Assembly: GCA_021790335.1 (NCBI GenBank)
Contig: JAJYEE010000003.1
Span: 62,001-126,000 of the forward strand
Length of the DNA stretch: 64,000 nt
Reading direction: 5' to 3'
Source: Pseudomonadota bacterium
GTDB lineage: Bacteria > Pseudomonadota > Gammaproteobacteria > Acidiferrobacterales > UBA6901
The notes under the pieces were generated by a model. The model searched no databases, was not told the DNA's origin, and saw only the letters and a program-made list of their open reading frames with translations. Positions 9,532-23,995 of this stretch are shown here, piece after piece; within the stretch, counting starts at the first letter, position 1, and each line of letters begins with the position of its first letter. Both the position numbers and the translations under genes were made by a program.

Positions 9532-11247
9532 ATGTCCGCAGTCACGGTCAAGCCCAAAAAGATCCGCATCGGGGATTTGCTGATCGAGCACAAGATCATT
9601 TCGCAGGAGCAGCTCAATGCTGCCCTCGCGGAACAGAAGAAGAGCGGCCGCAAGCTGGGGCGTGTGCTGATCGAAAACGGTTACCTGACTGAAGACCAGC
9701 TGCTGGATTTCCTGGCGCGCCAGCTGAACATTCCGTGCATCGACCTCAAGCGTTATCACCTCAAACCCGAGGTCGTGCACCTCATTCCCGAGACGCATGC
9801 ACGCCGCTTCCGGGTGCTCGCGCTGGAGGGGGGCCACGACAGCCTGCTCATCGGCATGGCCGATCCGACCGACATCTTTGCCTATGACGAACTGGCGCGC
9901 GTGTTGCGCCGGCCGTTGCGCCTGGCGGTAGTGCGCGAGACCGACCTGCTGAAAGCCATTGATCTGATGTACCGGCGCACCGACGAGATCAGCGGACTCG
10001 CCCAGGAGCTCGACCAGGAGATGTCCGCCTATGACGTGGACCTAAACCAGCTGGGTGGGGTCGACGGCCTGACCGATGCGCCCGTGGTCAAATTGCTGCA
10101 GACCATGTTCGAGGATGCGGTTCAGGTCAACGCCTCTGACATCCATATTGAACCCGACGAAAGGGAGCTGCGCATCCGATTTCGCCTGGACGGCGTGCTG
10201 CGAGTGCAGACGACCGCCGAGCGGCGCATCGCCAGTGCGCTGCTGTCGCGTCTGAAACTTATGGCAGGGCTGGATATATCAGAGAAGCGGCTGCCCCAGG
10301 ACGGGCGCTTCAATGTACGGGTGCGCGACAAGAGCGTGGATGTGCGCCTGTCGACACTACCCGTGCAATATGGCGAGTCGGCGGTCATGCGGCTGCTGAA
10401 CCAGACTACTGGTGTGCTTGATCTCGCCCAGCTCGGCATGCCCGAGGTGTTGCTCGCCCGGTTTCGCAGGATGATCCACAGCCCGCACGGCATGGTGCTC
10501 GTCACCGGACCGACAGGAAGCGGCAAGACTACGACCCTGTACGGGGCATTGCGTGAACTCAACAAGCCGACTTCCAAGGTCATCACCGTGGAGGATCCGA
10601 TCGAGTACCGCCTGCCGGGCATCAACCAGGTGCAGGTAAACAGCAAGATCAACCTGACCTTCGGGCGCGTGCTGCGTTCGGTGCTGCGTCAGGATCCGGA
10701 TATCGTGCTGGTCGGCGAGATGCGTGATCAGGAGACTGCGGAGATCGGGCTGCGCGCCGCCATGACCGGGCACCTGGTGCTGTCGACGCTGCATACGAAC
10801 GATGCCTTGTCGACGCCCTCGCGCCTGCTCGACATGGGGGCGGCGCCGTTTCTGATCGCTGCCAGTCTGCGCGGCATCTTGGCGCAGCGCCTGGTGCGGC
10901 GCATCTGCGAGAGCTGTTCCGAGCCGCTCGCCCTGGAGCCCGGCATGCGTGTGGTGGCAGAGCAGGAACTCGGGAGGCCGGCAGACGGCCTGGATTTTCG
11001 CCGCGGACGTGGGTGCACCTATTGCAACCACACCGGCTACCACGGACGCATCGGCATCTACGAACTGCTGGAGATGGACGACAGCCTGGTCCAGGCGCTG
11101 CACCGCGGTGACCCGCTGGCTTTCGCGCATGCCGCCAAAATGCAGCCGGGCTTTCTGAGCCTGAAGCGCAGCGCCGTGGAGCTTGCCGCGCGCGGCCTGA
11201 CCACCATGGAACAGGTGATGCGCGCCACCTTCGGCCTGGAGGATTGA
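9532..11247 (+). CDS. mshE: MSHA pilus extension ATPase MshE (GspE/PilB family, c-di-GMP-binding)
   Basis: Cytoplasmic hexameric ATPase that powers extension of the MSHA-type pilus, 571 aa. The N-terminus has two tandem 24-residue MshEN motifs, R12-Q35 and K41-Q64, separated by five residues. This is the arrangement shown to bind c-di-GMP in Vibrio cholerae MshE. The C-terminal ATPase has Walker A GPTGSGKT near 326, Walker B DIVLVGEMRD near 393, and a tetracysteine zinc site (CESC near 459, CTYC near 495). It is the first gene behind the sigma-54 promoter, 16 bp before mshG. The first motif starts RIG and the second KLG rather than RLG, both conservative. Confidence 0.96.
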   Translation: MSAVTVKPKKIRIGDLLIEHKIISQEQLNAALAEQKKSGRKLGRVLIENGYLTEDQLLDFLARQLNIPCIDLKRYHLKPEVVHLIPETHARRFRVLALEGGHDSLLIGMADPTDIFAYDELARVLRRPLRLAVVRETDLLKAIDLMYRRTDEISGLAQELDQEMSAYDVDLNQLGGVDGLTDAPVVKLLQTMFEDAVQVNASDIHIEPDERELRIRFRLDGVLRVQTTAERRIASALLSRLKLMAGLDISEKRLPQDGRFNVRVRDKSVDVRLSTLPVQYGESAVMRLLNQTTGVLDLAQLGMPEVLLARFRRMIHSPHGMVLVTGPTGSGKTTTLYGALRELNKPTSKVITVEDPIEYRLPGINQVQVNSKINLTFGRVLRSVLRQDPDIVLVGEMRDQETAEIGLRAAMTGHLVLSTLHTNDALSTPSRLLDMGAAPFLIAASLRGILAQRLVRRICESCSEPLALEPGMRVVAEQELGRPADGLDFRRGRGCTYCNHTGYHGRIGIYELLEMDDSLVQALHRGDPLAFAHAAKMQPGFLSLKRSAVELAARGLTTMEQVMRATFGLED

Positions 11248-11263
11248 AGGCGGCGCCCCGAAC

Positions 11264-12499
11264 ATGCCCAACTTCCACTACCACGGACGCAACCGCCGCG
11301 GCGAGGCCGTGACCGGCCGCATTGAGGCTGTCACCGCCGAGAGCGTAGCCAACCAGCTGTTCAACAACGGCATCACGCCGATCGACATCCGGCCGGCCGC
11401 TGCCGTGCGCGACGTATTCGGTGATCTGAAAAGCCTGATCGGGCGTCTGAACGAGGGCCGGGTCGGACTCACCGATCTGATCTTTTTCTGCCGGCAGATG
11501 TATACCCTGCTCAAGGCTGGCGTCCCGATCATGCAGAGCCTGCGCGGACTGCGCGACTCGACCCAGAATCCGGCACTGGCTGACGTGATCGGCAGCATCG
11601 CCGAGGGGTTGGACTCGGGCATGGATCTGACCAGCGCCGTCAGGCGGCATCCGCAGGTGTTTTCCAATCTTTTCGCGAGTCTGGTGCAAGTGGGCGAGAC
11701 CACCGGGAATCTGGCCGAGGCCTTCCTGCAGCTGGCGGCCTATCTCGAACGCGAGAAGGACACACGCGAACGTATCAAGCAGGCGCTGCGCTACCCTTCG
11801 ATCGTGGTGTTCGCCATCACCGTCGCCCTGTTCATCATCAATATTTTCGTCATTCCGGCGTTCGCCAAGGTGTACGCCGGGTTTCATGCGAAGCTGCCAT
11901 GGCCGACGCGCCTGCTCATCGCCACTTCGCACTTCATGGTGCACTACTGGGGGGTGATCCTGGTGATCGTGGTTGCCGCCGCCCTGGCTGTGAGGAGCTG
12001 GCTGCGCACGGCCGACGGCCGATACCGCTGGCACAGGGTCAAGCTGAAGCTTCCGGTCGTTGGGCGCATTGTGTATTCCGCCACGCTCGGGCGCTTTGCG
12101 CGTTCTCTGGCGGTCACGCTCAAGGCCGGCGTACCCCTGGTCCAGGGCATGTCGGTCGTCGCGCGCGCGGTGGATAATGATTTTGTCGGCGACCGCATTG
12201 CCCAGATGCGCGATGGGGTAGAGCGCGGTGAGAGCATCACCCGCTGCGCCACCGCGACCGGTCTGTTTCCGCCGCTGGTGCTCCAGATGATCTCGGTCGG
12301 CGAAGACTCCGGCGCGCTCGATCAGCTGCTCGTCGAGGTGGCGGACTATTATGAGCGCGAAGTCGACTACGATCTGCGCAATCTGAATACCGCGATCGAG
12401 CCGATCCTCATTTCGATCATCGGTGTGATCGTGCTCATCCTCGCCCTCGGTGTGTTCCTGCCCATGTGGGATCTGGCGCGTGCCGCACAGGCACACTGA
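11264..12499 (+). CDS. mshG: MSHA inner-membrane platform protein MshG (GspF/PilC family)
   Basis: Polytopic inner-membrane platform that couples the ATPase to pilin assembly, 411 aa. Two T2SSF domains can be seen (about residues 65-190 and 270-395), each with a cytoplasmic helical bundle and nearby transmembrane segments (FAITVALFIINIFVIPAF near 188, ISIIGVIVLILALGVFLPMW near the C-terminus). The N-terminal segment MPNFHYHGRNRRGEAVTG is typical of the family. It directly follows mshE and precedes the pilin genes. Confidence 0.95.
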   Translation: MPNFHYHGRNRRGEAVTGRIEAVTAESVANQLFNNGITPIDIRPAAAVRDVFGDLKSLIGRLNEGRVGLTDLIFFCRQMYTLLKAGVPIMQSLRGLRDSTQNPALADVIGSIAEGLDSGMDLTSAVRRHPQVFSNLFASLVQVGETTGNLAEAFLQLAAYLEREKDTRERIKQALRYPSIVVFAITVALFIINIFVIPAFAKVYAGFHAKLPWPTRLLIATSHFMVHYWGVILVIVVAAALAVRSWLRTADGRYRWHRVKLKLPVVGRIVYSATLGRFARSLAVTLKAGVPLVQGMSVVARAVDNDFVGDRIAQMRDGVERGESITRCATATGLFPPLVLQMISVGEDSGALDQLLVEVADYYEREVDYDLRNLNTAIEPILISIIGVIVLILALGVFLPMWDLARAAQAH

Positions 12500-12503
12500 C
12501 GCC

Positions 12504-13190
12504 ATGCGTCACATCCGTTGTCAGAAACTGGACAAACTCCCTACCGTATCCTACGGTCTGATAAAAGAATTCGAGACTCGGCACCCGCGCTTTACAGGGG
12601 GCACAAGTCCGTCAGAGGGGCCTCTCGCACGATCGTGGCGGGAGCGGGGATTTACGCTGCTGGAGCTGGTGGTCGTCATCGCCGTCATCGCACTGCTGCT
12701 GACGGTCGCGATCGGTCATTTGTGGGTCCTGCAGAAGGAGGCGGAGGCGACCGCGATGGAGCAGGTGCTCGGTACGCTGCGCAGCGCACTTGGCATGAAT
12801 GTTGCAAGTGATCTGGTGAACGATGATATCGCTGATCTGCGCCGCCTGGCGGGCAGTAACCCGATGCGGGAACTGGCGCAGACGCCGAAGAATTACCTGG
12901 GCACGTTCGATGGTGTGAACCCGGCCAGTATTCCGGGGGGCCACTGGTACTTCGACCGGCGCAGCCGGATGCTGATCTACCGGGTGCGCAACCGGGATTA
13001 TTTCAGCGGCGGGCTGGGCATGCCGCCCCGGGCCGGCTTCACGATCCGGATTGCGCAGGCGCGACACACGCGTGGCAAAGCGGTCGGCGCAGTGCTGGTT
13101 GCGGTGGCGCCCTACCGCTGGGGACCGCGGCGCGCAGCAGAACGAAGGCAAGGCGTCGCATGGAGTATCGGCAGGATTTTCGGTTTCTGA
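12504..13190 (+). CDS. Prepilin-like protein in the MshF position
   Basis: A pilin-like protein of 228 aa with a type IV cleavage signal RG|FTLLELVVVIAVIALLL (cleavage near residue 49) and a long positively charged leader. The globular part has no recognised domain; motifs such as GGHWYFDRRSRMLIYRVRN are seen. It lies between mshG and two major-type pilins, where mshF stands in Vibrio, but similarity to MshF cannot be judged by eye. The leader is unusually long, and a later non-ATG start is possible. Probably a minor pilin or initiation factor. Confidence 0.8.
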   Translation: MRHIRCQKLDKLPTVSYGLIKEFETRHPRFTGGTSPSEGPLARSWRERGFTLLELVVVIAVIALLLTVAIGHLWVLQKEAEATAMEQVLGTLRSALGMNVASDLVNDDIADLRRLAGSNPMRELAQTPKNYLGTFDGVNPASIPGGHWYFDRRSRMLIYRVRNRDYFSGGLGMPPRAGFTIRIAQARHTRGKAVGAVLVAVAPYRWGPRRAAERRQGVAWSIGRIFGF

Positions 13191-13204
13191 ACGAGGAGGC
13201 AGTA

Positions 13205-13666
13205 ATGAAATCACAGCAGGCGGGCTTTACCCTGATCGAGCTCGTGATCGTGATCATCATTCTCGGCGTGCTGGCGGCAATCGCCCTGCCGCGTTATGTC
13301 AATCTGGGCCAGTCGGCGCGCGTTGCGAGCGTCAATGGTGTGGCCGGCGGGCTGCGTGCGGCGGTCGCCGTGGTCCAGTCGCGCTATATTGCGACCGGCC
13401 AGACTACTTCCCCCGTGACCATGCTCGATGGCACCACGGTGGCCGTGGCGACCGGCGCCAATGACGGCGGCATTCCCCTGGCCACGGCGCTCGGCATCGG
13501 CAATGCCATCCAGGCAGCGAGCAATACTGCGCCCATTGCCAACTATAACACCCACTACGCAGGCAGCATTGCGACCTTCACGCTGCGCACCAACTGCGAT
13601 GCTACCTACACAGAGAACGGGACCACCCTCATCGGCGTGGTGGCCGTCACGATCACCGGCTGCTAG
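13205..13666 (+). CDS. mshB: MSHA-type pilin, first copy (MshA/MshB-like)
   Basis: Type IVb prepilin of 153 aa with a seven-residue leader, MKSQQAG|FTLIELVIVI, glutamate at +5 and a hydrophobic first helix of about 22 residues. The body is small and rich in Ala, Thr and Gly, with cysteines in NCDAT near 129 and at the very C-terminus, suited to the D-region disulfide. Its paralogue follows 65 bp later. By order this is the MshB position, but it could equally be a second major pilin. Start supported by GAGG upstream. Confidence 0.85.
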   Translation: MKSQQAGFTLIELVIVIIILGVLAAIALPRYVNLGQSARVASVNGVAGGLRAAVAVVQSRYIATGQTTSPVTMLDGTTVAVATGANDGGIPLATALGIGNAIQAASNTAPIANYNTHYAGSIATFTLRTNCDATYTENGTTLIGVVAVTITGC

Positions 13667-13731
13667 CCGGTCCGACGGAACGTGTTCATTTTGACTATGG
13701 TAAACCCTTATTTCGAAACAGGAGTCCTGAT

Positions 13732-14178
13732 ATGAAGAAGCAGACCGGTTTTACCCTGATTGAATTGGTGATGGTGATCGTGATCCTTGGGATCCTGGCC
13801 GCCGTCGCGCTGCCGAAGTTCGTCAATCTCGGGGGCGATGCGCGCACTTCGGTGATTCAGGGCGTGGAAGGCAGCATGCGCGGTGCGAACGCCGAGATCT
13901 ACGCCATGGCGGCACAAGCGAGCGGTGGGCTGGGTGCCACGTCGACAGTGACCATCAACGGTGCGACCGTCAATACGGCCTACGGATACGCCGCCACGGT
14001 CGCCGACCTGGAAAAGGTGATGGACCTTTCTCCTGCGGGCGACTTCACGACCGTCGTCGGCCCGCCCGGCGAGATCGAAATGACCAACGCGACGACTCCG
14101 TCCAGCTGCAAGACGACCTACACGGCCGCCACTGCCACGTCTACCCCGAATTATGTCACTGCCACCGGGGGCTGTTGA
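13732..14178 (+). CDS. mshA: MSHA major pilin candidate
   Basis: Type IVb prepilin of 148 aa with a six-residue leader, MKKQTG|FTLIELVMVI, glutamate at +5 and a typical hydrophobic helix. Two cysteines (SCKTT near 124 and the terminal residue) would close the D-loop. A strong AGGAG lies before the start, and a rho-independent terminator follows 58 bp after the stop, as expected for an abundant pilin. The pilin is secreted to the inner membrane, cut by a PilD-type peptidase (not in this window) and polymerised by MshE/MshG. Confidence 0.88.
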   Translation: MKKQTGFTLIELVMVIVILGILAAVALPKFVNLGGDARTSVIQGVEGSMRGANAEIYAMAAQASGGLGATSTVTINGATVNTAYGYAATVADLEKVMDLSPAGDFTTVVGPPGEIEMTNATTPSSCKTTYTAATATSTPNYVTATGGC

Positions 14179-14235
14179 TCGGCCACTGTCGAAGCCGGTA
14201 CGTCCGGCAGCGATCCAGATGCGGAGGTAATAAGA

Positions 14236-14270
14236 ACGGGGTGTTGGCATACAGCACCCCGTCTTTTTTT
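14236..14270 (+). terminator. Rho-independent terminator after mshA
   Basis: Stem ACGGGGTG (14236-14243) pairs with CACCCCGT (14255-14262) across an 11-base loop, followed by C and seven T's. It would set high pilin mRNA levels against lower read-through into the minor-pilin genes. Confidence 0.8.
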
Positions 14271-14311
14271 GGCGCCCGCCGGAGCACAATGCCATACGCA
14301 GAGGGAATGCC

Positions 14312-14833
14312 ATGAACAAGCACGCTCGAAATGCGAAGGCCCGCCCGGCGTGCGAGCGCGGCTTTACCTTCGTCGAACTCGTGGTTGTCCTGGTGATTGC
14401 AGGCGTGCTCGCCGCGGTAGCCGCCAGCCGCTGGAACGCGACCGGTGCGACCGCGCCCTATCAGGGAGAGCTCCTTGCACGCAGCATCCGCCACACGCAG
14501 ATGCTTGCCATGGCCTGGGGCAGCACTTTACTGCTCACGCCAGCAGGCGGTGGCTACGGTGTTTCCTGTGCCAGCGCCGGTACCCCCGCGTGCGCCAGTG
14601 GTCCAGGCACACCGGTCACGGACCCGGCGAGCGGCGCGCCCTTCAATGTCGCGCTGAGCTATGGCGTCACGCTCACCGGCCCGGCTCTGTATCTCGACAG
14701 CCTTGGCCGGCCGGTGTCATCGGCCGGAACCGTCCTCAGTTCAGCGACGGTCTACACCCTGAGTGCCGGCACCCAGACCTGGTCGGTGCGCGTGGCGCCC
14801 ATAACCGGCTTCGTGACGGTGTCCACGCCATGA
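14312..14833 (+). CDS. mshC: MSHA minor pilin MshC-like (GspH-type)
   Basis: Prepilin-like protein of 173 aa with a 17-residue leader ending ERG|FTFVELVVVLVIAGVLAAVAASRW. The body contains IRHTQMLAMAWG and a C-terminal strand region VRVAPITGFVTV, as seen in MshC/FimT-type minor pilins. It overlaps mshD by 4 nt (ATGA), so the two are coupled. It lies after the major-pilin terminator and would be expressed at lower level. Likely primes pilus assembly with MshD, MshO and MshP. Confidence 0.85.
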   Translation: MNKHARNAKARPACERGFTFVELVVVLVIAGVLAAVAASRWNATGATAPYQGELLARSIRHTQMLAMAWGSTLLLTPAGGGYGVSCASAGTPACASGPGTPVTDPASGAPFNVALSYGVTLTGPALYLDSLGRPVSSAGTVLSSATVYTLSAGTQTWSVRVAPITGFVTVSTP

Positions 14834-15234
14834 GCAGGTGCAGCGCACGCGGCTTCACGCTGGTCGAGCTGATCATGGTGATCGTGCTGCTCGGGATCGC
14901 TGCGGTCGCGATCATTTCCGGCTACGGCCAGGTAGCGCGCTCGCTTAGCGCCAACGCCGAGCTGCAGGCAGGCATGCAGCTCGCACGCGAATGCGGTGAG
15001 TACCTGATTGCGCAGCGACGCGACAACCCGCTCGTGGGCTACAGCGGCGTGAGCGGAGCCAATATCTGCAGCACGCTGCCGGACCCGCAGGGCCTCACCG
15101 TGGCGGTCACGTTCACTGATCCCTATGGCGGCGCGGCCTGTGGGGGCATCTCCTCCTGCAAGCTGGCGGACATCACGGTGACTCAGGGAACGCAGACCCT
15201 GGATACCGCCAGCCTCATGCTGGCGAGCTACTAA
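14830..15234 (+). CDS. mshD: MSHA minor pilin MshD-like
   Basis: Prepilin-like protein of 134 aa, leader MSRCSARG|FTLVELIMVIVLLGIAAVAII. ATG 14830 overlaps the mshC stop, which fixes the start; longer frames upstream are in mshC. The short body has cysteines at NICST, GAACGGISSCK and a motif LADITVTQGTQTL. Assignment as MshD rests on order (C-D-O-P) and leader; family detail is not distinctive. Its stop overlaps mshO by one base. Confidence 0.82.
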   Translation: MSRCSARGFTLVELIMVIVLLGIAAVAIISGYGQVARSLSANAELQAGMQLARECGEYLIAQRRDNPLVGYSGVSGANICSTLPDPQGLTVAVTFTDPYGGAACGGISSCKLADITVTQGTQTLDTASLMLASY

Positions 15235-15788
15235 TGCGGCGGGCAATGCCAGGCACCGTCGGCGCCCTTGCAGCGCATCGCGCTCAGGACGGCTTCACGC
15301 TCATCGAACTGGTCATGGTGATCGTGCTCATCGGCATAATCGCCGTTGCCGCTACGCCCGTGCTGCTGAGTGGCGTCAAGACGTTCCATACGACGTCGGC
15401 AAGCCTCGACGCCCTGAGCAAGCTGCGCTATGCCACCGCGCGCATGGCGCGCGAGCTCCGCGAGATCCGGCGCAATCCAGCCAATACCGCCGATTACGAC
15501 ATTGCCACCATGACCGCGACGACGCTTTCCTTCACCAAGACCGACGGCACCACGGTGACGATCAGCGAAAGTCTTCCGGATGTGATGCTTTCCTACTCGA
15601 CGCCGCCGGCCTCGGCGGTGCTTACCGACGAGGTCAGCAGCCTTGCGTTCAGCTACCTCAAGATCGATGGCGTGACGCCGGCTACCGGCGCTGCAGACGT
15701 GGCATTCGTCCGCATCGATCTCACACTGACCCAGAACGGGGAACCCTATAGCCAGACGACCTGGGTGACGCTGAGGAACCAGTCATGA
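15234..15788 (+). CDS. mshO: MSHA minor pilin MshO-like (PilW/GspJ-type)
   Basis: Prepilin-like protein of 184 aa with leader ending AQDG|FTLIELVMVIVLIGIIAVAATPVLL. The body has the PilW/GspJ-like segment LRYATARMARELREIRRNP (about 62-80) and a C-terminal FVRIDLTLTQNGEPYSQTTWVTLRNQ strand. Overlaps with mshD (1 nt) and mshP (4 nt) show a tight operon. Probably part of the pilus-tip minor-pilin complex. Confidence 0.87.
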   Translation: MRRAMPGTVGALAAHRAQDGFTLIELVMVIVLIGIIAVAATPVLLSGVKTFHTTSASLDALSKLRYATARMARELREIRRNPANTADYDIATMTATTLSFTKTDGTTVTISESLPDVMLSYSTPPASAVLTDEVSSLAFSYLKIDGVTPATGAADVAFVRIDLTLTQNGEPYSQTTWVTLRNQS

Positions 15789-17191
15789 AGGAGTCATTCG
15801 AGACAGGTTTCCGTGGGCACGCGCGCGAACAGGGCGCAGCCACCCTGATGGCGGTGCTGTTTCTGCTCATCGTGATCGCGTTCGCGGTGCTGGTGGCGAC
15901 AAGCATGTCCGGTTCCGACATCACCGACACCAGTCTCGGGCAAAGCGGCGTGAGCGCGCTGCTGCTGGCGGAAAGCGGCATAGAGCGTGCCGCCGCCCGC
16001 TATGTCGCGGGCAATTCCTGCGCCACTCTTGCGGTTGACGGTCCTTATGCCCTGGGTCAGGGGTCGTTCACGATCAATGCTTCCTACACCACCGATTTCA
16101 GCGGGACGAACCTGCCCGCTGGCGAATGCCGTGTGCAGAGCGTAGGAACCGTCGGGCTGGTTCAGCGCACGGTGCAGGCGATCCTGCAGCTCCCGGCATC
16201 GGATGGCATGGTCGTCGGCAACGGCGGGACCGCACTGCGCTGTGGCGGCAGCACCTGCACCAGCACCAAGGGGATACCGGGTAGGGATAACCTGGTCGGC
16301 GTCTCCTGTCCGACATCCACGGACTGCATCGCGGTGGCTGGCAATAAAGGGGATGCCTTCGGATGGAACGGATCGAAGTGGACCCGGCTGCGTGTTCCAC
16401 CCATCCGGCACTGGCAGTCGTTTGCTTCGGTCGCCTGCGAGCCGGGCAACGGAGCCGACTGCTTTGCTGTCGGGACGGCGGGGAAAGCGGGTGACCAGTA
16501 CGTGCTGCAATGGACGGGCACCCGCTGGAGACGGGTCGGTGCGTATCCGGGCGGGTACGACGTTTATTTCGGGCAGCTAAACGCCATCTCCTGTGCCGGC
16601 AGCGGAGCCACGACCACCTGTTATGCGACGACGAACGGCGGTTGGTTCGGCAGCATTTTCTGGGTTGGCGCGAGCGGGGGTGGCAACTGGTTCTACGCGA
16701 ATTCTTCCAATCCACTGAGCGCGGTTTCCTGCGCAAGGGCCACAGACTGCTGGGCGACGGAGGGCGCATCATCGTATTTCGATGCGCTTACCCCCGCCGG
16801 CGGGGGCCAATCCAGTTATAGTGTCAGCGGCAACGCCCCCAACCTCGATGCGATCTCCTGTGACGCGACGAATGACTGCTGGGCGGCCGGGCAAACGGTC
16901 GGCAGGAGGGGCGGCCGATCGGTGTTCGTCTACTGGAACGGCAGCGCCGGGGCCGTACAGACCCTGAGAACCAAGCGAAATCTGGATGGGGTCGATTGCC
17001 TGTCCTCCAGCGAATGTTGGGCAGTAGGCACTAAAGGCACGGTTTTGCATGGCAGCGGTACCGCCGCCGCCCGCACCTGGTCTGCCGTGAGATCGGGGAC
17101 CGGGCAGCAGCTCAATGCGGTGTCGTTTCCAGCAGGTTCAAGCGGCAGCAGTTCGGCGGTGGTGATTCAGTGGCACGAGATCGAATCCTGA
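15785..17191 (+). CDS. MshP-like minor pilin fused to a seven-repeat, disulfide-rich propeller-like domain
   Basis: 468 aa; ordinary MshP proteins are much shorter. Residues 1-140 look like MshP/PilX: a charged leader, a long hydrophobic helix (ATLMAVLFLLIVIAFAVLVATSM, about 19-41), then LLLAESGIERAAARYV. From about 165 to the end there are seven repeats starting at 170, 213, 265, 311, 354, 400 and 443 (43-52 residues apart). Each begins L(N/D/S)A(V/I)SC-like; six have a second cysteine 6-9 residues later in (D/E)C(W/F/I)A(V/A)G, followed by a strand ending in W-x-G. The last repeat has Phe for Cys. This is best explained as a seven-bladed beta-propeller with one disulfide per blade, displayed at the pilus tip. 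It ends the mshC-D-O-P operon; no separate MshQ follows. Fold is inferred. Confidence 0.85.
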   Translation: MKESFETGFRGHAREQGAATLMAVLFLLIVIAFAVLVATSMSGSDITDTSLGQSGVSALLLAESGIERAAARYVAGNSCATLAVDGPYALGQGSFTINASYTTDFSGTNLPAGECRVQSVGTVGLVQRTVQAILQLPASDGMVVGNGGTALRCGGSTCTSTKGIPGRDNLVGVSCPTSTDCIAVAGNKGDAFGWNGSKWTRLRVPPIRHWQSFASVACEPGNGADCFAVGTAGKAGDQYVLQWTGTRWRRVGAYPGGYDVYFGQLNAISCAGSGATTTCYATTNGGWFGSIFWVGASGGGNWFYANSSNPLSAVSCARATDCWATEGASSYFDALTPAGGGQSSYSVSGNAPNLDAISCDATNDCWAAGQTVGRRGGRSVFVYWNGSAGAVQTLRTKRNLDGVDCLSSSECWAVGTKGTVLHGSGTAAARTWSAVRSGTGQQLNAVSFPAGSSGSSSAVVIQWHEIES

Positions 17192-17356: not shown

Positions 17357-17384
17357 TTGACAACATAGAGTTACTATGTAAATT
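17357..17384 (+). promoter_or_regulatory. Candidate sigma-70 promoter for mshI-N
   Basis: TTGACA (17357-17362), 16 bases, TAAATT (17379-17384) in an AT-rich part of the 297-bp interval after the mshP-like gene. The rest of this interval (17192-17488) holds no gene. A separate promoter fits the split of the locus into two blocks. Confidence 0.4.
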
Positions 17385-17488
17385 TTCTGCTATGGTTCAA
17401 CTATGAACAATAACTGCATGGGATGGATCATGTCTGCTGCCGGATGGTTCATTAACCACTTGCCGGAATTCCGCCGTTGTTCGCACTA

Positions 17489-18415
17489 ATGAAAAAAAGA
17501 CAGACCTTGCCTGGGCTGACGGCGGTCGGGCTGGGTGGTGACGGCGTATTTCTGGTGCGTATGCTGCGCGAATCAGGGAAGCGCCCGCGCATTCTGCACT
17601 GGGATTTCCGGCCAGTCAGCGCGGATGCGTCGCAGGACAAGGTCCTCTCGGCGCTCGCTCGTGACTATGATCTCAAGCGCGCCCGCTGCACGACGCTGCT
17701 CGATGTGGCGGACTATCAGCTTCTGCTGACCGAGGCGCCGGATGTGCATGCCGACGAACTGAAAGCAGCGTTGCGCTGGCGCGTCAAGGATCTCATCAAC
17801 TTTCATATCAATGATGCAAGTCTCGACGTCTTCGATCTGCCGGGCGATGTTGTGCCCGGGCGTGCCCGCGAGATGTATGTAGTGGCGGCGCGCAACAGCG
17901 CGATCCAGGAGCGGGCCGACACCCTGGATGCGGCCGGCATCAATCTCGATATCATCGACATTCCCGAGCTCGCGCAGCGCAACGTCGCATCGCTGCTGCC
18001 CGAGGACGCAAACGGGGTGGCGATGCTGACGCTGCAGGCTTCAAGCGGACTCGTTACTCTGACCCGCCAGGGCCTCATGTACCTGAGCCGTACGCTCAAC
18101 GTCGGGACCGAAACCCTGGAAAGTGCCATCGAGCAGGCAGGCTACTATGATCATATCGTTCTGGAGGTCCAGCGTTCGCTGGATTATTACGAAAGCCATT
18201 TTCGCGAGGCACCGATCCGCCATCTGGTTCTCGGAGGCGCAGCGGCCGGCCTGCCGCCGCTGATCGAGCACCTGCGCGCCAACCTCAACATGCAGGTATC
18301 CGTGCTGGACCTGTCGCAGCTGCTCGATTGCGACACGACCCCGCCGGAGGGACTGCAGTTGCGCTGCCTGGCCCACATTGGCGCGGCTCTGCGCCAGGAG
18401 GTCAAGGCGTTGTGA
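17489..18415 (+). CDS. mshI: MSHA biogenesis protein MshI (PilM-like)
   Basis: Cytoplasmic actin-like protein of 308 aa, equivalent to PilM in type IVa systems, where PilM with PilN forms the cytoplasmic side of the alignment complex. Seen are TAVGLGGDGVFLVR near the N-terminus, LKAALRWRVKDLI near 92-104, SLDYYESHF near 232 and the nucleotide-fold-like LVLGGAAAGLPPL near 246. ATG 17489 was preferred over a TTG four codons earlier. It overlaps the next gene (GTGA), so the two are coupled. Confidence 0.88.
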   Translation: MKKRQTLPGLTAVGLGGDGVFLVRMLRESGKRPRILHWDFRPVSADASQDKVLSALARDYDLKRARCTTLLDVADYQLLLTEAPDVHADELKAALRWRVKDLINFHINDASLDVFDLPGDVVPGRAREMYVVAARNSAIQERADTLDAAGINLDIIDIPELAQRNVASLLPEDANGVAMLTLQASSGLVTLTRQGLMYLSRTLNVGTETLESAIEQAGYYDHIVLEVQRSLDYYESHFREAPIRHLVLGGAAAGLPPLIEHLRANLNMQVSVLDLSQLLDCDTTPPEGLQLRCLAHIGAALRQEVKAL

Positions 18416-19053
18416 TCCAGCAGGTCAATCTCTTTCATCCGATCTTCCGCAAGCAGCAGAAGAAATTCTCTGCCAAGGCCATGCTGCAGGCGGGTGTTGC
18501 GGTGCTTGCCGGCATCGCGCTGATGTATGCGCTTACCTGGTGGCGACTCGAGGTGCTGCGGGGGCAGGTGCGCGAGGTAGATCGGCAGCAGACCGCGGCG
18601 GCCAGCCGCATTACGGACATAGGCAGGGATTTCCCGTTGCGCCAGGCGACGCCGGCACTGGCTGCCCGGTTGCGCCGGCTACAGGAGCGGGTGGCGGCGA
18701 GCAGGCGCGCGTACCGCATTCTTCAGCACGAACACTTTGGCAGCACCGGCGGTTACTCTGCTTACCTGATCGCGTTTGCGCGCCAGCACGTTCCTGGACT
18801 GTGGTTGACCGGGGTGCATATCGCAGGCACCGGCCAGCACATGACACTGGAAGGACGCAGCATGCTGCCCGATCTCGTGCCGCGCTATCTGCAGCGCTTG
18901 TCCACAGAAAAGATCCTGGCCGGAACCGACTTTGCGGTCTTCCGTATAACACGCCCGCAACGGCCCTCGGGCAAAGGGGCTCTCGAGCCGTACGTCGATT
19001 TCATTGTAAAGACTGCCGGTACCGGATTCGGCGCAGGGGTCGGCCATGACTAG
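18412..19053 (+). CDS. PilN-like MSHA alignment protein (MshI2 position)
   Basis: Inner-membrane protein of 213 aa with a short cytoplasmic N-terminus IQQVNLFHPIFRKQ, the PilN-type motif that docks on PilM. A single transmembrane helix (about 24-44), a periplasmic coiled coil and a small globular domain follow. GTG start overlaps the mshI stop. It corresponds to the small PilN-like gene of other MSHA loci (MshI2/MshI1 by naming). Followed by mshJ with an 8-nt overlap. Confidence 0.85.
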   Translation: MIQQVNLFHPIFRKQQKKFSAKAMLQAGVAVLAGIALMYALTWWRLEVLRGQVREVDRQQTAAASRITDIGRDFPLRQATPALAARLRRLQERVAASRRAYRILQHEHFGSTGGYSAYLIAFARQHVPGLWLTGVHIAGTGQHMTLEGRSMLPDLVPRYLQRLSTEKILAGTDFAVFRITRPQRPSGKGALEPYVDFIVKTAGTGFGAGVGHD

Positions 19054-19786
19054 CGGTTGGCGCCAGTCAGTCAAGCGGTATGCTGACCGCATCGATGCAC
19101 TGTCGCTGCGTGAGCGTGCGCTGGTGTTCGTCGGAATTCTGGTGGTGCCGATCGTGATCGCGGTCAATTTCCTGTTCATGCCCTTGCGCAACGAGCAACT
19201 GCGTCTGGAGCAGCAGATTGCCAGCCGGCTCCACCAGGCACGGGAGCTGGACGCGCAGGGCAACGCGCTGCTGGCCTTGCGCACGGATCATCCGGATGCC
19301 GCTGCGCAGGCCCAGATTGCGCTGCTCAAGCAACAGCTGCGGACGAACCGTGGAACGCTTTCCATCATCACGCACGGCCTGGTAGGCCCGAAGCAGATGG
19401 CCAGGCTGGTACATGAAGTGCTCGCGAAGAACGGCGCGCTGCAGCTGGTTTCTATCGAAAACCTGCCGCCGCTTCCCCTGGGTGGTTCCGGCATTGCAAG
19501 TCAGGCGAAAGCAGCGGCCCCCGGTCCGGCGGCTGCACAACCCCCTGCTTCCCCCGGCGCGAGCCTTGCGGGCGCCGCCACCGGCCCGGTTCTCTACCTT
19601 CACGGCATGCGCGTGGTGCTGAAGGGCCGCTATGTCGACATCGTGCGCTATCTGCAGGCGCTGCAGGCGCTGCGCTGGAAGATGTTCTGGGGGAGGCTGG
19701 ACCTGAAAGTCCAGCATTACCCGGTTTCCGAGGTAACGCTGGTGATCTATACGCTCGGCTTCAACCGGGCCTGGATCGGCATGTAG
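19046..19786 (+). CDS. mshJ: MSHA biogenesis protein MshJ (PilO-like)
   Basis: Inner-membrane protein of 246 aa. One transmembrane helix (about residues 28-47, ALVFVGILVVPIVIAVNFLF) follows a short basic cytoplasmic part, then a periplasmic coiled coil rich in Gln and Leu (48-110), an Ala/Pro-rich linker (about 155-185) and a C-terminal domain with KGRYVDIVRYLQALQALRW. This is the PilO-type ferredoxin-like pattern. It partners the PilN-like protein in the alignment complex. Confidence 0.88.
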   Translation: MTSGWRQSVKRYADRIDALSLRERALVFVGILVVPIVIAVNFLFMPLRNEQLRLEQQIASRLHQARELDAQGNALLALRTDHPDAAAQAQIALLKQQLRTNRGTLSIITHGLVGPKQMARLVHEVLAKNGALQLVSIENLPPLPLGGSGIASQAKAAAPGPAAAQPPASPGASLAGAATGPVLYLHGMRVVLKGRYVDIVRYLQALQALRWKMFWGRLDLKVQHYPVSEVTLVIYTLGFNRAWIGM

Positions 19787-19836
19787 CCGCGCAGGGATGC
19801 TGTATTGGCATGATATTTGTAACGGTGCTGAGGTAA

Positions 19837-20211
19837 ATGGACAAAGGGCATCTATATCGGGTGGTCATGTTACTGCTGCTGGCATGCGCCGGTGCGCCGG
19901 CGCATGCCAGCGACTCCCTGGCTGGGCTCGCCGACCCCACGCGGCCGTATGCCGGAAATGCCGCATCGGGGCACGGGCATGCGGGATTCGTGCTGCAATC
20001 GACGCTGGTGTCGCCGTTGCAACGCATGGCCGTGATCAATGGCCGTGCCTTTACCGTAGGCGCGCACATCGGCGGCGCGGAGATCGTGCGGATCCATTCG
20101 TATGGCGTGGTCCTGAGCCGCGCCGGCAAGCGACGCCTGCTGCGTCTGCTGCCGAAACTGGATATCGAGAGACGAAGCGATGAGAGCATGCTCCCTGCAG
20201 CAATCCGATAA
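19837..20211 (+). CDS. mshK: MSHA biogenesis protein MshK (PilP-like)
   Basis: Small periplasmic protein of 124 aa with a signal peptide (hydrophobic core VVMLLLLACAGAPAHAS, residues 9-25) and the family motif LADPTRPY near 31. A short beta domain follows, LVSPLQRMAVINGRAFTVGAHIGGAEIVRIHSYGVVL. It links the inner-membrane alignment complex to the secretin MshL, whose start lies inside this gene in another frame (32-nt overlap). Confidence 0.87.
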   Translation: MDKGHLYRVVMLLLLACAGAPAHASDSLAGLADPTRPYAGNAASGHGHAGFVLQSTLVSPLQRMAVINGRAFTVGAHIGGAEIVRIHSYGVVLSRAGKRRLLRLLPKLDIERRSDESMLPAAIR

Positions 20212-21928
20212 ATACCGCCGCGCGCGCGTCCTCCTGGCGGTCCTGGCCACGACTGGGCTGGCTGCCTGCCAGACCAACCCCTATCGCTGGGACAAAGAGG
20301 TCGGAACGCACATCGGCGCAAGCCTGGAGCGTGCCGGCAAGACCGATGCGTCCGCGTCCACAGTGCCCCGTGCCGTAAGCCAGGCGCTGCTGCCGCCGCT
20401 CGAGATCCGCTTGCCGCACGGACAGCGCGCGCCGCTCGAGCCGCGTTTCGATCTGTCCGTCAACAACGCCCAGGCGCGCGATGTGTTCATGGGCCTGGTG
20501 CGGGGGACACCCTACAGCGTAATCGTGTCGCCGGATCTCACCGGGACCCTCACCCTCCACCTGAAGAATGTCACGGTGCCTGAAGCCCTGGACGCGATCC
20601 GTCAGGCCTATGGCTACGACTACCGGCGCGAGGGCAACCGCTTTTTCATCTACGGCCTGGGGATGCAGACACGCATCTTCCACATCAATTACCTCAACAT
20701 GGTCCGCACCGGAGAATCGGAACTCCGCGTGACCTCAGGTGAGCTCACACAGAGCGAGACTTCGGCGGGTTCTTCGAGTGCGGTGCCCGGAGGCACCTCA
20801 ACCTCGACATCTCAGTCGATTCCCAGCATCCGGGTGAAAACGATATCCAAGGCGGATTTCTGGGGAACGCTCAGGAGCAGCCTGACCGCGATAATCGGAA
20901 ACACCGGCGGCCGCCAGGTGGTTGTCAACCCGCAGGCCGGTCTGGTCATCGTGCGCGCCATGCCGCGGCAACTGGAGATGGTGCGCCGCTACCTCAGGCA
21001 GACCAGCGTAGCGGTGGACCGCCAGGTGATCCTCGACGCGAAGATCCTCGACGTCCAGCTCAACAATCAGTTCCAGACCGGCATCAACTGGGCGGCTTTG
21101 CAGGGCTCTTCGGTATTCGCGCAGACCGGCGGTGGCACCATCTTCGGTGGCCCGGGAACGAGCGATATCGCAGGCCAAACCGGCAATCTCAATCCCAACA
21201 TTGCCAATCCCGCCACGCCGGCCGGCAGCAGCTTTATCAACAATACCGCCGTTTCGGCGTTCGGAGGCGTGTTCAGTATCGCGACCAAGTCTGCGGACTT
21301 CGCTTCGTTCCTGGAACTGCTGCAGACCGAGGGAACCGTGCACGTGCTGTCAAGCCCGCGGGTGTCGACGATCAACAACCAGAAAGCCGTCATCAAGGTT
21401 GGCGGCGATGACTTCTTTATCACCGGCGTGACCAATACGCCGCTGACTTCCGTTGGCGGGACCACCACCGTTTCCAGTCAGGTGGAACTGACGCCGTTCT
21501 TTTCCGGCATCGCCCTGGACGTAACTCCCGAGATCAATGCCCGGGGCGACATCATCCTGCACATCCATCCTTCGGTAAGTCAGGTCGTTCAGAAGGACAA
21601 CACCTTTACGCTCAACGGGCAGGTCAACAGTCTGCCGCTCGCCTCAAGTACGATCCAGGAGTCCGACGATGTTGTGCGTGCCAAGAGCGGTCAGTATGTG
21701 GTGATCGGCGGCCTGATGAAGGAGGAGAGCACCGACAATAATGCCGGCGTGCCGTTTCTCGACGATATTCCGCTGCTGGGCAACCTGTTCAAGGACAAGC
21801 AGGCGGTGCGCGTCAAGAACGAGCTCGTGATCCTGCTCAAGCCGACCATCGTGGACAATGGTGAGGTCTGGGAAGATTCGATCCAGGGATCGCGCCGTCA
21901 TTTCCGCGATCTGGAAAGCAGCCACTGA
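20180..21928 (+). CDS. mshL: MSHA outer-membrane secretin MshL
   Basis: Outer-membrane secretin of 582 aa through which the pilus exits. It has a lipoprotein signal with lipobox LAAC (C30), a secretin N0-type domain (LDLSVNNAQARDVFMGLV-like near 92-110), an N1 domain (residues 230-290, QVVVNPQAGLVIVRAMPRQLEMVRRYL) and the secretin pore domain with VDRQVILDAKILDVQLNNQFQTGINW, VLSSPRVSTINNQKAVIKVG and GQYVVIGGLMKEE. A Ser/Thr-rich insert lies near 195-215. Length is normal. Confidence 0.95.
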   Translation: MRACSLQQSDKYRRARVLLAVLATTGLAACQTNPYRWDKEVGTHIGASLERAGKTDASASTVPRAVSQALLPPLEIRLPHGQRAPLEPRFDLSVNNAQARDVFMGLVRGTPYSVIVSPDLTGTLTLHLKNVTVPEALDAIRQAYGYDYRREGNRFFIYGLGMQTRIFHINYLNMVRTGESELRVTSGELTQSETSAGSSSAVPGGTSTSTSQSIPSIRVKTISKADFWGTLRSSLTAIIGNTGGRQVVVNPQAGLVIVRAMPRQLEMVRRYLRQTSVAVDRQVILDAKILDVQLNNQFQTGINWAALQGSSVFAQTGGGTIFGGPGTSDIAGQTGNLNPNIANPATPAGSSFINNTAVSAFGGVFSIATKSADFASFLELLQTEGTVHVLSSPRVSTINNQKAVIKVGGDDFFITGVTNTPLTSVGGTTTVSSQVELTPFFSGIALDVTPEINARGDIILHIHPSVSQVVQKDNTFTLNGQVNSLPLASSTIQESDDVVRAKSGQYVVIGGLMKEESTDNNAGVPFLDDIPLLGNLFKDKQAVRVKNELVILLKPTIVDNGEVWEDSIQGSRRHFRDLESSH

Positions 21929-21965
21929 CCGGCGCAGGCCCATCCGTATCGAGGGAAGTTGAGGC

Positions 21966-22880
21966 ATGTACGCATCGCATTTTGGCCTGACCGAACTCCC
22001 TTTCAGCATTACGCCGGATACGAGCTTCTTTTACGGGCATTCGAGCTACCAGGATGCGCTTAATACGCTGCTTGTGTCGGTGCGCAGCGGCGAGGGCTTC
22101 ATCAAGGTGGTCGGCGAGGTCGGCACCGGCAAAACACTTCTGTGCCGCAAGCTGCTGGCCAGCCTGGAGGAGGATTTCGTCACCGCCTACATTCCCAACC
22201 CCTATCTTGAACCGATGACGCTGCTGCTGGCCGTGGCCGACGAGCTTGGCGTTGCCTACGGCGGACAGGTCAATCAGCACCATTTGCTCAAGTCAATCAC
22301 TTCGTTTCTGGTCGACGTGCACGCACGGGGCAGGAGAGTGGTTGTGTGTCTGGATGAAGCGCAGGCCATGCCGATCGAAACGCTCGAGGCTCTGCGCCTG
22401 CTGAGTAACCTGGAGACGGAGCGGCGCAAGTTGTTGCAGGTGGTGCTGTTCGGCCAGCCCGAACTCGATGCGCGCCTGGATGATCCCTCCATCCGTCAGC
22501 TCAGGCAACGGATCAGCTTTTCCTGCAATCTGGGCGCCATGAGCGTCGAAGACGTTGAATATTATGTCGCGCACCGGCTGGGCGTTGCCGGCTACCGCGG
22601 TCCGCGGCTCTTCTCGCGCGAGGCGGTGCATACGCTGTACCGCGCAAGCCGCGGGATCCCGCGGCTGGTCAATGTTCTGGCACACAAGGCCATGATAGCG
22701 GCCTTCGGCGAAGGCGTGCACCTGATCGGCATGCGCTATGTGAAGGAAGCGGTCGCCGACACCGAGTCGACGCGGCTGTGGCTGACGCCACAACGGGTCC
22801 GGATCATCAAGGCCGCGGCCGCTGTTCTCGCGCTTGTGCTGATGTCCGCCGGGATGCTGATGTGGAGGCTTCGCGTGTGA
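21966..22880 (+). CDS. mshM: MSHA biogenesis ATPase MshM (ExeA/GspA-type AAA)
   Basis: AAA ATPase of 304 aa with Walker A GEVGTGKT (residues 50-57), Walker B VVVCLDEAQ near 122 and a C-terminal transmembrane helix (about 278-300, AAAAVLALVLMSAGMLMW). ExeA-like proteins help assemble secretins through the peptidoglycan; MshM is the MSHA counterpart, but it lacks an obvious periplasmic peptidoglycan-binding domain. Its stop overlaps the GTG start of mshN. Confidence 0.93.
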   Translation: MYASHFGLTELPFSITPDTSFFYGHSSYQDALNTLLVSVRSGEGFIKVVGEVGTGKTLLCRKLLASLEEDFVTAYIPNPYLEPMTLLLAVADELGVAYGGQVNQHHLLKSITSFLVDVHARGRRVVVCLDEAQAMPIETLEALRLLSNLETERRKLLQVVLFGQPELDARLDDPSIRQLRQRISFSCNLGAMSVEDVEYYVAHRLGVAGYRGPRLFSREAVHTLYRASRGIPRLVNVLAHKAMIAAFGEGVHLIGMRYVKEAVADTESTRLWLTPQRVRIIKAAAAVLALVLMSAGMLMWRLRV

Positions 22881-23995
22881 GCCTGATAAACAAGATGCTG
22901 AAAGACCTCGAGGTGCGTCAACATGCGCCACAGAAGGGCGCGACGTCCCAGCCGATCTACCAAGACCTGCATCCGGTGGCCGCTGAGCGCGCCCGCCGAA
23001 GCGCCGTGCCATTCGTACTGCTTCTGTTTGGTGCGGTCATCCTGGCAGCCGGTCTGGTCATAGGTTACCGCCGGCTTGTTTCGGCCTCTGCTGACACTGC
23101 GGTCGCTTCGCCGTTCCGACCGGCACAGGCGGGGCCTGTGCCGGCACGGCCCATCATGTCTGTGCGGCCGATCCCGCCGGCGGCACCGTCCGTGGTGACA
23201 GTCAACGCTGGCAAACGTCCCGGCGTCATCAAGCCGGCGAAGTCCACGCGTTCGGGAAGCGTCCATGCGGCGTGGATCAGCCGCAGGCTGCAGGCGGACC
23301 GCAGCCGTCCTGCGCGGATCGCGGCTGTCAGCCGGATTGTGCCCCCGTTATTGGCGTCGTCTGTGGGGAGCGACAATGGAACCGGCGGCGGTCAGATTCA
23401 AATGAAGGTTATTCCACTGACGGCCGGACAGGTTGCCGAAAATGCGTACCGCCAAGGTGTCAATCTGCTCCAACAGGGGCGTCAGGCGGATGCGGAGACC
23501 GACTTCAAGACAGCGCTGGCGAGCGATCCGCGCAATGTGAAGGCGAGAGAGCTCTTCGCTGGCGTCCTGCTTGAGGATGGCCGGCGCTCGGCGGCCGCAA
23601 CACTGCTGGCCCAGGGGCTTTCGGTGCTGCCACATGAGAGTTCATTTGCGTACCTGCTTGCGCGCATCGATGCGGCGCGCGGCGCCGAGCCCGCGGCAAT
23701 CGCGGTGCTCGAGAAAAACCTGCCGTATGCGGGTTCCGACCCCGACTATCTGGCGTTGCTTGCAACGCTCGATCAGCGCGCCGGGCGCAATGCCGACGCC
23801 GCCAACATGTTCAGTCGCGCGCTCGCCCTCAGACCGCTCAACGGCAACTGGTGGATCGGGCTCGGGATCTCGCTCGAAGCGCAGAAGCGCTGGGCCGCAG
23901 CACGCGAGGCCTACACCCGCGCAACGATGACGCGGCTGGACCCGGCGCTCGTGAAATACGCCGATGAGCGCCTGGAAGCGCTTCGCTTCCGCTAA
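22877..23995 (+). CDS. mshN: MSHA biogenesis TPR protein MshN
   Basis: Inner-membrane TPR protein of 372 aa. The N-terminus SLINKMLKDLEVRQ is typical of MshN. One transmembrane helix (about 43-63) is followed by a Pro/Ala-rich periplasmic linker and tetratricopeptide repeats from about 190 on (NAYRQGVNLLQQGRQADAETDFKTAL, AANMFSRALALRPLNGNWWIGLGISLEA). GTG 22877 was chosen because it overlaps the mshM stop and gives the family start. Its role in MSHA assembly is required but poorly defined in Vibrio. Confidence 0.9.
   Translation: MSLINKMLKDLEVRQHAPQKGATSQPIYQDLHPVAAERARRSAVPFVLLLFGAVILAAGLVIGYRRLVSASADTAVASPFRPAQAGPVPARPIMSVRPIPPAAPSVVTVNAGKRPGVIKPAKSTRSGSVHAAWISRRLQADRSRPARIAAVSRIVPPLLASSVGSDNGTGGGQIQMKVIPLTAGQVAENAYRQGVNLLQQGRQADAETDFKTALASDPRNVKARELFAGVLLEDGRRSAAATLLAQGLSVLPHESSFAYLLARIDAARGAEPAAIAVLEKNLPYAGSDPDYLALLATLDQRAGRNADAANMFSRALALRPLNGNWWIGLGISLEAQKRWAAAREAYTRATMTRLDPALVKYADERLEALRFR

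Follow-up and report, generated by a model that had tools for sequence, protein, structure and literature searches.

An MSHA-locus minor pilin with an inserted, apparently exchangeable seven-blade propeller-type domain

The gene at 15785–17191 of the window, the whole 64,000-nucleotide stretch of DNA analysed here, is a single uninterrupted open reading frame encoding 468 amino acids, in which a minor pilin and a seven-blade propeller-type domain form one chain. It sits at the MshP position of an MSHA-type locus, where its ATG and the stop codon of mshO share 4 bases. The initial annotation had proposed a pilin and propeller in one chain at this position, with a frameshift between two genes as one outcome that would speak against it. 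Full-length orthologs in two other species of the same genus (G002 and G004, 67–68% identity) agree with the proposal. Because both congeners carry the complete fusion, a frameshift, two separate genes and an assembly chimera are ruled out. Sequence comparisons document the fusion, its insertion site, the seven blades, co-variation of their cysteines, the locus, and a divergence of DNA confined to the propeller. We consider it likely that the protein is a modular pilin at the tip of the MSHA pilus, in which an inserted, closed seven-blade propeller serves as an exchangeable binding head.

The locus reads mshE, G, F, B, A, C, D, O, the 468-aa gene, I, J, K, L (secretin), M and N; all of these genes lie on the + strand. 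mshE, mshG and the prepilin genes mshF/B/A/C/D (9532–15234) were assigned from Pfam matches and synteny in relatives, and the minor pilin gene mshO, directly upstream (15234–15788), from its N_methyl match. A MshO homolog lies immediately 5' of the pilin-propeller gene in 19 of 24 loci (the window and 18 others). Downstream, mshI, J, K, the secretin gene mshL, mshM and mshN (17477–23995) were identified by PilM_2 and Secretin matches and by synteny. A Sigma-70-like promoter sequence (TTGACA-16-TAAATT) is found at 17357–17384, between the 468-aa gene and mshI. Since a similar sequence also occurs 3' of the short mshP of a congener (L002), the mshI–N operon probably has its own promoter. Between congeners, few products of the locus other than the propeller have diverged as far as that of mshN (22778–23995; 46–87% identity, dN/dS of 0.35–0.43). 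As initially annotated, no MshQ follows the gene; a profile search for MshQ (DUF6701, PF20419) found none in the entire genome, whose PilY1 is a 1222-aa frame on another contig. We abandoned the idea that each genome has exactly one of the two, the pilin-propeller protein or MshQ: both are encoded by G054 and G056, and neither by g6 genomes with a short MshP.

The N-terminal part of the protein has the features of a type IV pilin. A prepilin leader (residues 1–17, 15785–15835) ends in AREQG with predicted cleavage between G17 and A18, as judged from the sequence and 24 relatives. The junction AREQG/AATLMAVLFLLIVIAFAVLVAT displays the Gly followed by a hydrophobic helix that marks the type IV pilin superfamily, a feature of 24/24 pilin-propeller relatives. 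Glu at mature position 5 is absent from all 24 pilin-propeller proteins, the window protein included. The first pilin segment (residues 18–137, 15836–16195) ends in RTVQAILQLP, is delimited by congeners, by propeller-less proteins (L002 and L034) and by profile, and is 90–93% identical among congeners. A pilin profile of related pilin-propeller proteins, from which the genus of the window protein was left out, matched the N-terminal half with an E-value of 7e-17, in keeping with the MshP/PilX pilin start first proposed. The window protein falls below the N_methyl and PilX_N cut-offs, and profile scans of the whole protein gave no Pfam or NCBIfam family match; two relatives (L038 and L045) exceed the Pfam PilX_N cut-off. 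Searching the PDB with the pilin profile matched no pilin. A low-confidence model of the short pilin (pLDDT 49) had no pilin among its Foldseek matches, a list we took to be meaningless.

Beyond the pilin segment, a blade profile detected seven matches, starting at residues 138, 170, 214, 265, 311, 354 and 400 (total E 3.7e-42 with a profile that itself includes blades of the window protein); the best of 1000 shuffled sequences scored 8.7 bits. Six blades are continuous: residues 170–212 (16292–16420; Cys 175/181), 213–264 (16421–16576; Cys 218/226), 265–310 (16577–16714; Cys 270/279), 311–353 (16715–16843; Cys 316/322), 354–399 (16844–16981; Cys 359/365) and 400–442 (16982–17110; Cys 405/411). 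The match at residue 138 begins at profile position 9 and has no strand A, which is provided by the strand at 443 (LNAVSF). The seventh blade is accordingly predicted to be composite, closed in velcro fashion by pairing the closing strand A (residues 443–458 with the linker, 17111–17158, alike in relatives) with strands B–D from residues 138–169 (16196–16291; Cys 153/158). The initial annotation had placed repeats at 170, 213, 265, 311, 354, 400 and 443. These starts hold, as does the number of seven blades, but the element at 443 is a closing strand only and not a whole repeat. Velcro closure went unrecognized there, as did the insertion, the wide distribution and the exchange of the module. 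Seven matches were likewise found in 19/24 pilin-propeller proteins, the first beginning at profile position 7–13; the other five have 4, 6, 11, 13 and 14. Two MshP-slot pilins, each in a frame of 910 aa, possibly contain two propellers in series: L040:2030–4759 has 14 blade matches and L045:11934–14663 has 13.

In most blades, one Cys ends strand A and another starts strand B. A disulfide staple predicts that the two would be kept or lost together. Among 152 blades having both positions aligned, 132 had both Cys, 19 had neither, and 1 had a single Cys (Fisher p 3e-23). The window protein has 16 Cys in total, and every one of them can be paired. The paired Cys and the Phe described initially were located as Cys 153/158, six further blade pairs, and Phe 448 in the last strand. 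Most blades therefore appear to be stapled by one disulfide each.

The profile search of the repeat region that had been suggested at the outset pointed to a specific propeller type. With an alignment of 18 members, the best PDB sequence match was Ycf48 (E 2.2e-7), and Pfam scans of the 18 relatives detected a Rax2 propeller in 10 and PSII_BNR (YCF48) in 3. The protein has the seven blades and the A-V-G / W-x-x-W repeats of the YCF48 type. Residues conserved across the alignment are mainly structural G, C, W and V. The PDB returned nothing when searched with the whole window protein and no significant match when searched with a blade-only profile. A single-sequence AlphaFold model of residues 128–468 was of low confidence (pLDDT 45, pTM 0.41), as was a prediction for the short pilin from a two-row alignment. 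Foldseek nonetheless ranked YCF48 first with the low-confidence model (E 7e-6). Most of the top matches listed were propellers, with a superposition (TM about 0.3) too poor for the model to demonstrate a closed ring. Profile, Pfam and Foldseek results thus support a YCF48-like fold of the seven-blade propeller type, as the initial description of propeller-type blades had it.

The position of the propeller within the pilin is revealed by a congener, G001 (L002, MAG BP9.bin79), with the same locus and a 156-aa MshP that has no propeller. This protein follows the pilin sequence to ILQLP, continues with RRRRRGP, and finishes with VVIQWHEIES, the last ten residues of the window protein (residues 459–468, 17159–17188). 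Because the propeller-less congener retains both pilin halves, comparison of the two sequences indicates that the propeller is inserted rather than appended, with the pilin resuming in a conserved strand that contains a W-x-E motif. The Trp of this strand is present in 18/18 aligned proteins, and a pilin part without propeller also occurs in L034. Short MshPs of family f4 have a hairpin and then end in ...RTVTATRKQGKITYTVTAWAQQ (...VTAWAQQ), which makes the last hairpin of the pilin the most likely insertion point. Relatives in other families carry modules different from the propeller at the same site (L035, L036, L037, L038 and L087), all ending in a Trp-containing motif, mostly W-x-E. The L038 module resembles a CBM_4_9 domain with a score below the cut-off. 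MshP-slot pilins of two families (L035:8463–10112 and L087:5901–7124) share an insert type of ~200 aa before the Trp tail; the L035 insert had no Pfam match. G056 encodes, directly after its pilin-propeller gene, a second modular pilin (L085:4051–6108, a 686-aa frame) with a different insert containing WNG repeats and the ending IYDWVEIFP.

Divergence at the locus is concentrated in the propeller. Between the window and G002, neighbouring msh proteins are 87–98% identical and the pilin part 93%, as compared to 57% for the propeller. Corresponding dS values are 0.11–0.38 for other msh genes, 0.24 for the pilin part, and 0.84 for the propeller. Between congeners, nucleotide identity falls from about 95% to 68% in the propeller. 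Against G002 it goes from 97% to 73% at 16201 and is back to 93% at 17161; both transitions coincide with the edges of the inserted domain. Propeller dN/dS (0.29–0.45) is still purifying, and the jump in dS argues for recombinational replacement rather than fast selection alone. Strong local selection together with repeated recombination would be an alternative source of this divergence that the data do not separate from replacement. The tree of the pilins disagrees with that of the propellers at well-supported branches. In L126 and L129, a propeller that groups with the long-pilin set sits on a short-set pilin, and L133 shows the reverse, its propeller grouping with the short-pilin set and its pilin with the long set. 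Collectively, the loss of DNA identity exactly where the propeller begins and ends, seen in dS as well, and the conflicting trees suggest module exchange: the propeller seems to be traded between relatives like a cartridge. On a larger scale, mshF–mshO plus the pilin part (window 12532–16131) are ~90% identical to G004 (L032) with dS of 0.16–0.48, as against about 0.7–0.85 for flanking mshE, mshG, mshI and mshL; this block itself looks recombined between species.

The pilin-propeller design recurs in many related bacteria, usually right after mshO; this recurrence is new here. Among 57 genomes of the window's order, 13 have blade matches and 11 encode the fusion. Matches in the other two, G024 and G036, are to YCF48-like repeat proteins that are not pilins. 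G036 encodes several large YCF48/BNR-repeat proteins of ~750–830 aa (L090:4971–11091 and L091:5090–7552) that look secreted or like lipoproteins and have no pilin part. In a class-wide sample of 369 genomes, 18 have blade matches and 14, the window's own genome counted, encode a pilin-propeller chain. Only the window's own genome was positive in a phylum-wide sample of 398, and scans of viral contigs and of plasmids found no homolog.

We propose that a minor pilin resembling PilX, MshP and GspK has been split at its last beta-hairpin to accommodate a closed seven-blade YCF48-type propeller. Velcro closure would bring the first and last propeller strands next to each other, from where the pilin could resume and finish with its W-x-E strand. 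A missing Glu5 and a bulky insert suggest that the protein comes first in the filament, a place also proposed for GspK and ComZ. The subunit would then start the pilus with MshO, MshD and MshC, be first to pass the MshL secretin, and remain at the tip. A tip location and a role in adhesion are plausible. The propeller would be displayed there as a binding head, perhaps instead of a separate MshQ. The reading that it replaces MshQ is weak; MshQ is also missing from some genomes with a short MshP. As close relatives replace, lose or recombine the propeller while their pilin parts stay constant, cassette exchange could change binding specificity without rebuilding the pilus. We would put at even chances a broader version, in which many Gammaproteobacteria have an MSHA tip pilin that combines an unchanging pilin frame with a recombining head cassette, a self-closing propeller or some other module, set into one fixed hairpin; strains would swap this cassette or replace it allelically, altering adhesion independently of PilY1 and MshQ.

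Other roles for the chain can be envisaged. A tip propeller might be a receptor for DNA uptake or for a secreted partner protein instead of a surface adhesin, given that ComZ, with the same insertion topology, binds DNA, and CofB is an adaptor that holds CofJ. We think this unlikely: the locus is of MSHA type and not a competence locus, and the propeller is strongly variable among close species with only structural residues conserved in the 18-member alignment, a pattern that does not suggest one constant ligand and is expected of a head whose ligand varies by lineage. Divergence could alternatively reflect weak constraint on a propeller that only primes or caps assembly and binds nothing. A high propeller dN fits this scenario, as does the priming of T4aP by PilY1 and minor pilins described in PMC7541494. 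Against it stand an ortholog wholly without propeller in an otherwise intact locus, the maintenance of blade count and Cys pairs, and the purifying dN/dS, which together leave a pure priming role rather improbable. Finally, the uninformative structure prediction of the pilin part gives some room for a propeller that is simply a C-terminal appendage, with the W-x-E tail belonging to it and not to the pilin. An identical tail in the propeller-less ortholog and the same end motif in proteins with unrelated inserts make this very improbable. An exchangeable binding head at the pilus tip remains our preferred interpretation.

The part with which MSHA pili bind and the role of MshP appear to have received little study. 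An exchangeable propeller on a constant pilin frame offers a concrete, testable answer to both, and the propeller-less congener constitutes a natural control. The fixed insertion hairpin may also lend itself to display at the pilus tip.

Several known systems share elements of this architecture. PilY1/PilC tip proteins (PF05567) also have a propeller at the type IV pilus tip, but PilY1 is a separate large non-pilin protein, whereas here the propeller is in the pilin chain; a PilY1 assignment of the window protein was discarded, with no match to PF05567 (T4P_PilY1). YCF48/HCF136, the closest PDB profile match, has the same blade pattern and number but is a photosystem II assembly factor and not a pilin. 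GspK, which has no Glu5, is likewise a tip pseudopilin with an inserted domain; its insert is alpha-helical and interrupts the sheet between strands 3 and 4, in contrast to the propeller of the window protein. MshP of other MSHA pili shares the slot after mshO, but known short MshPs have no insert and a separate MshQ (DUF6701), while the window locus has an insert and no MshQ. Text searches of an open-access library turned up no account of a propeller-bearing pilin at the MshP position. Modular pilins have already been published as a class (PMC8179133), defined by Raynaud et al. 2021. The published survey required IPR012902 (PMC8179133), and the N_methyl model matches 0/11 pilin parts scanned here; therefore, this group would escape the survey, and tip modules of such kind are probably under-counted. 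PilB of Streptococcus sanguinis is a demonstrated adhesin and PilC is part of a glycan-binding complex (PMC8179133, PMC9934059). Like these, the window protein is a minor pilin joined to a module that is predicted to be functional and that probably sits at the tip. The PilB module follows the pilin via a short linker, whereas the module described here is inserted. ComZ of Thermus thermophilus has its module between the last two pilin strands (PMC6561018), as does the window protein. The ComZ insert, however, is a beta-solenoid and belongs to a competence pilus; in the MSHA locus described here the insert is a propeller of seven blades, apparently exchanged among relatives. The "new layout" originally suggested is thus upheld for a propeller within an MshP-slot pilin, but not for modular pilins or ComZ-type insertion, which were already published. 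The layout is a variant of published modular pilins, inserted as in ComZ, rather than a wholly new kind.
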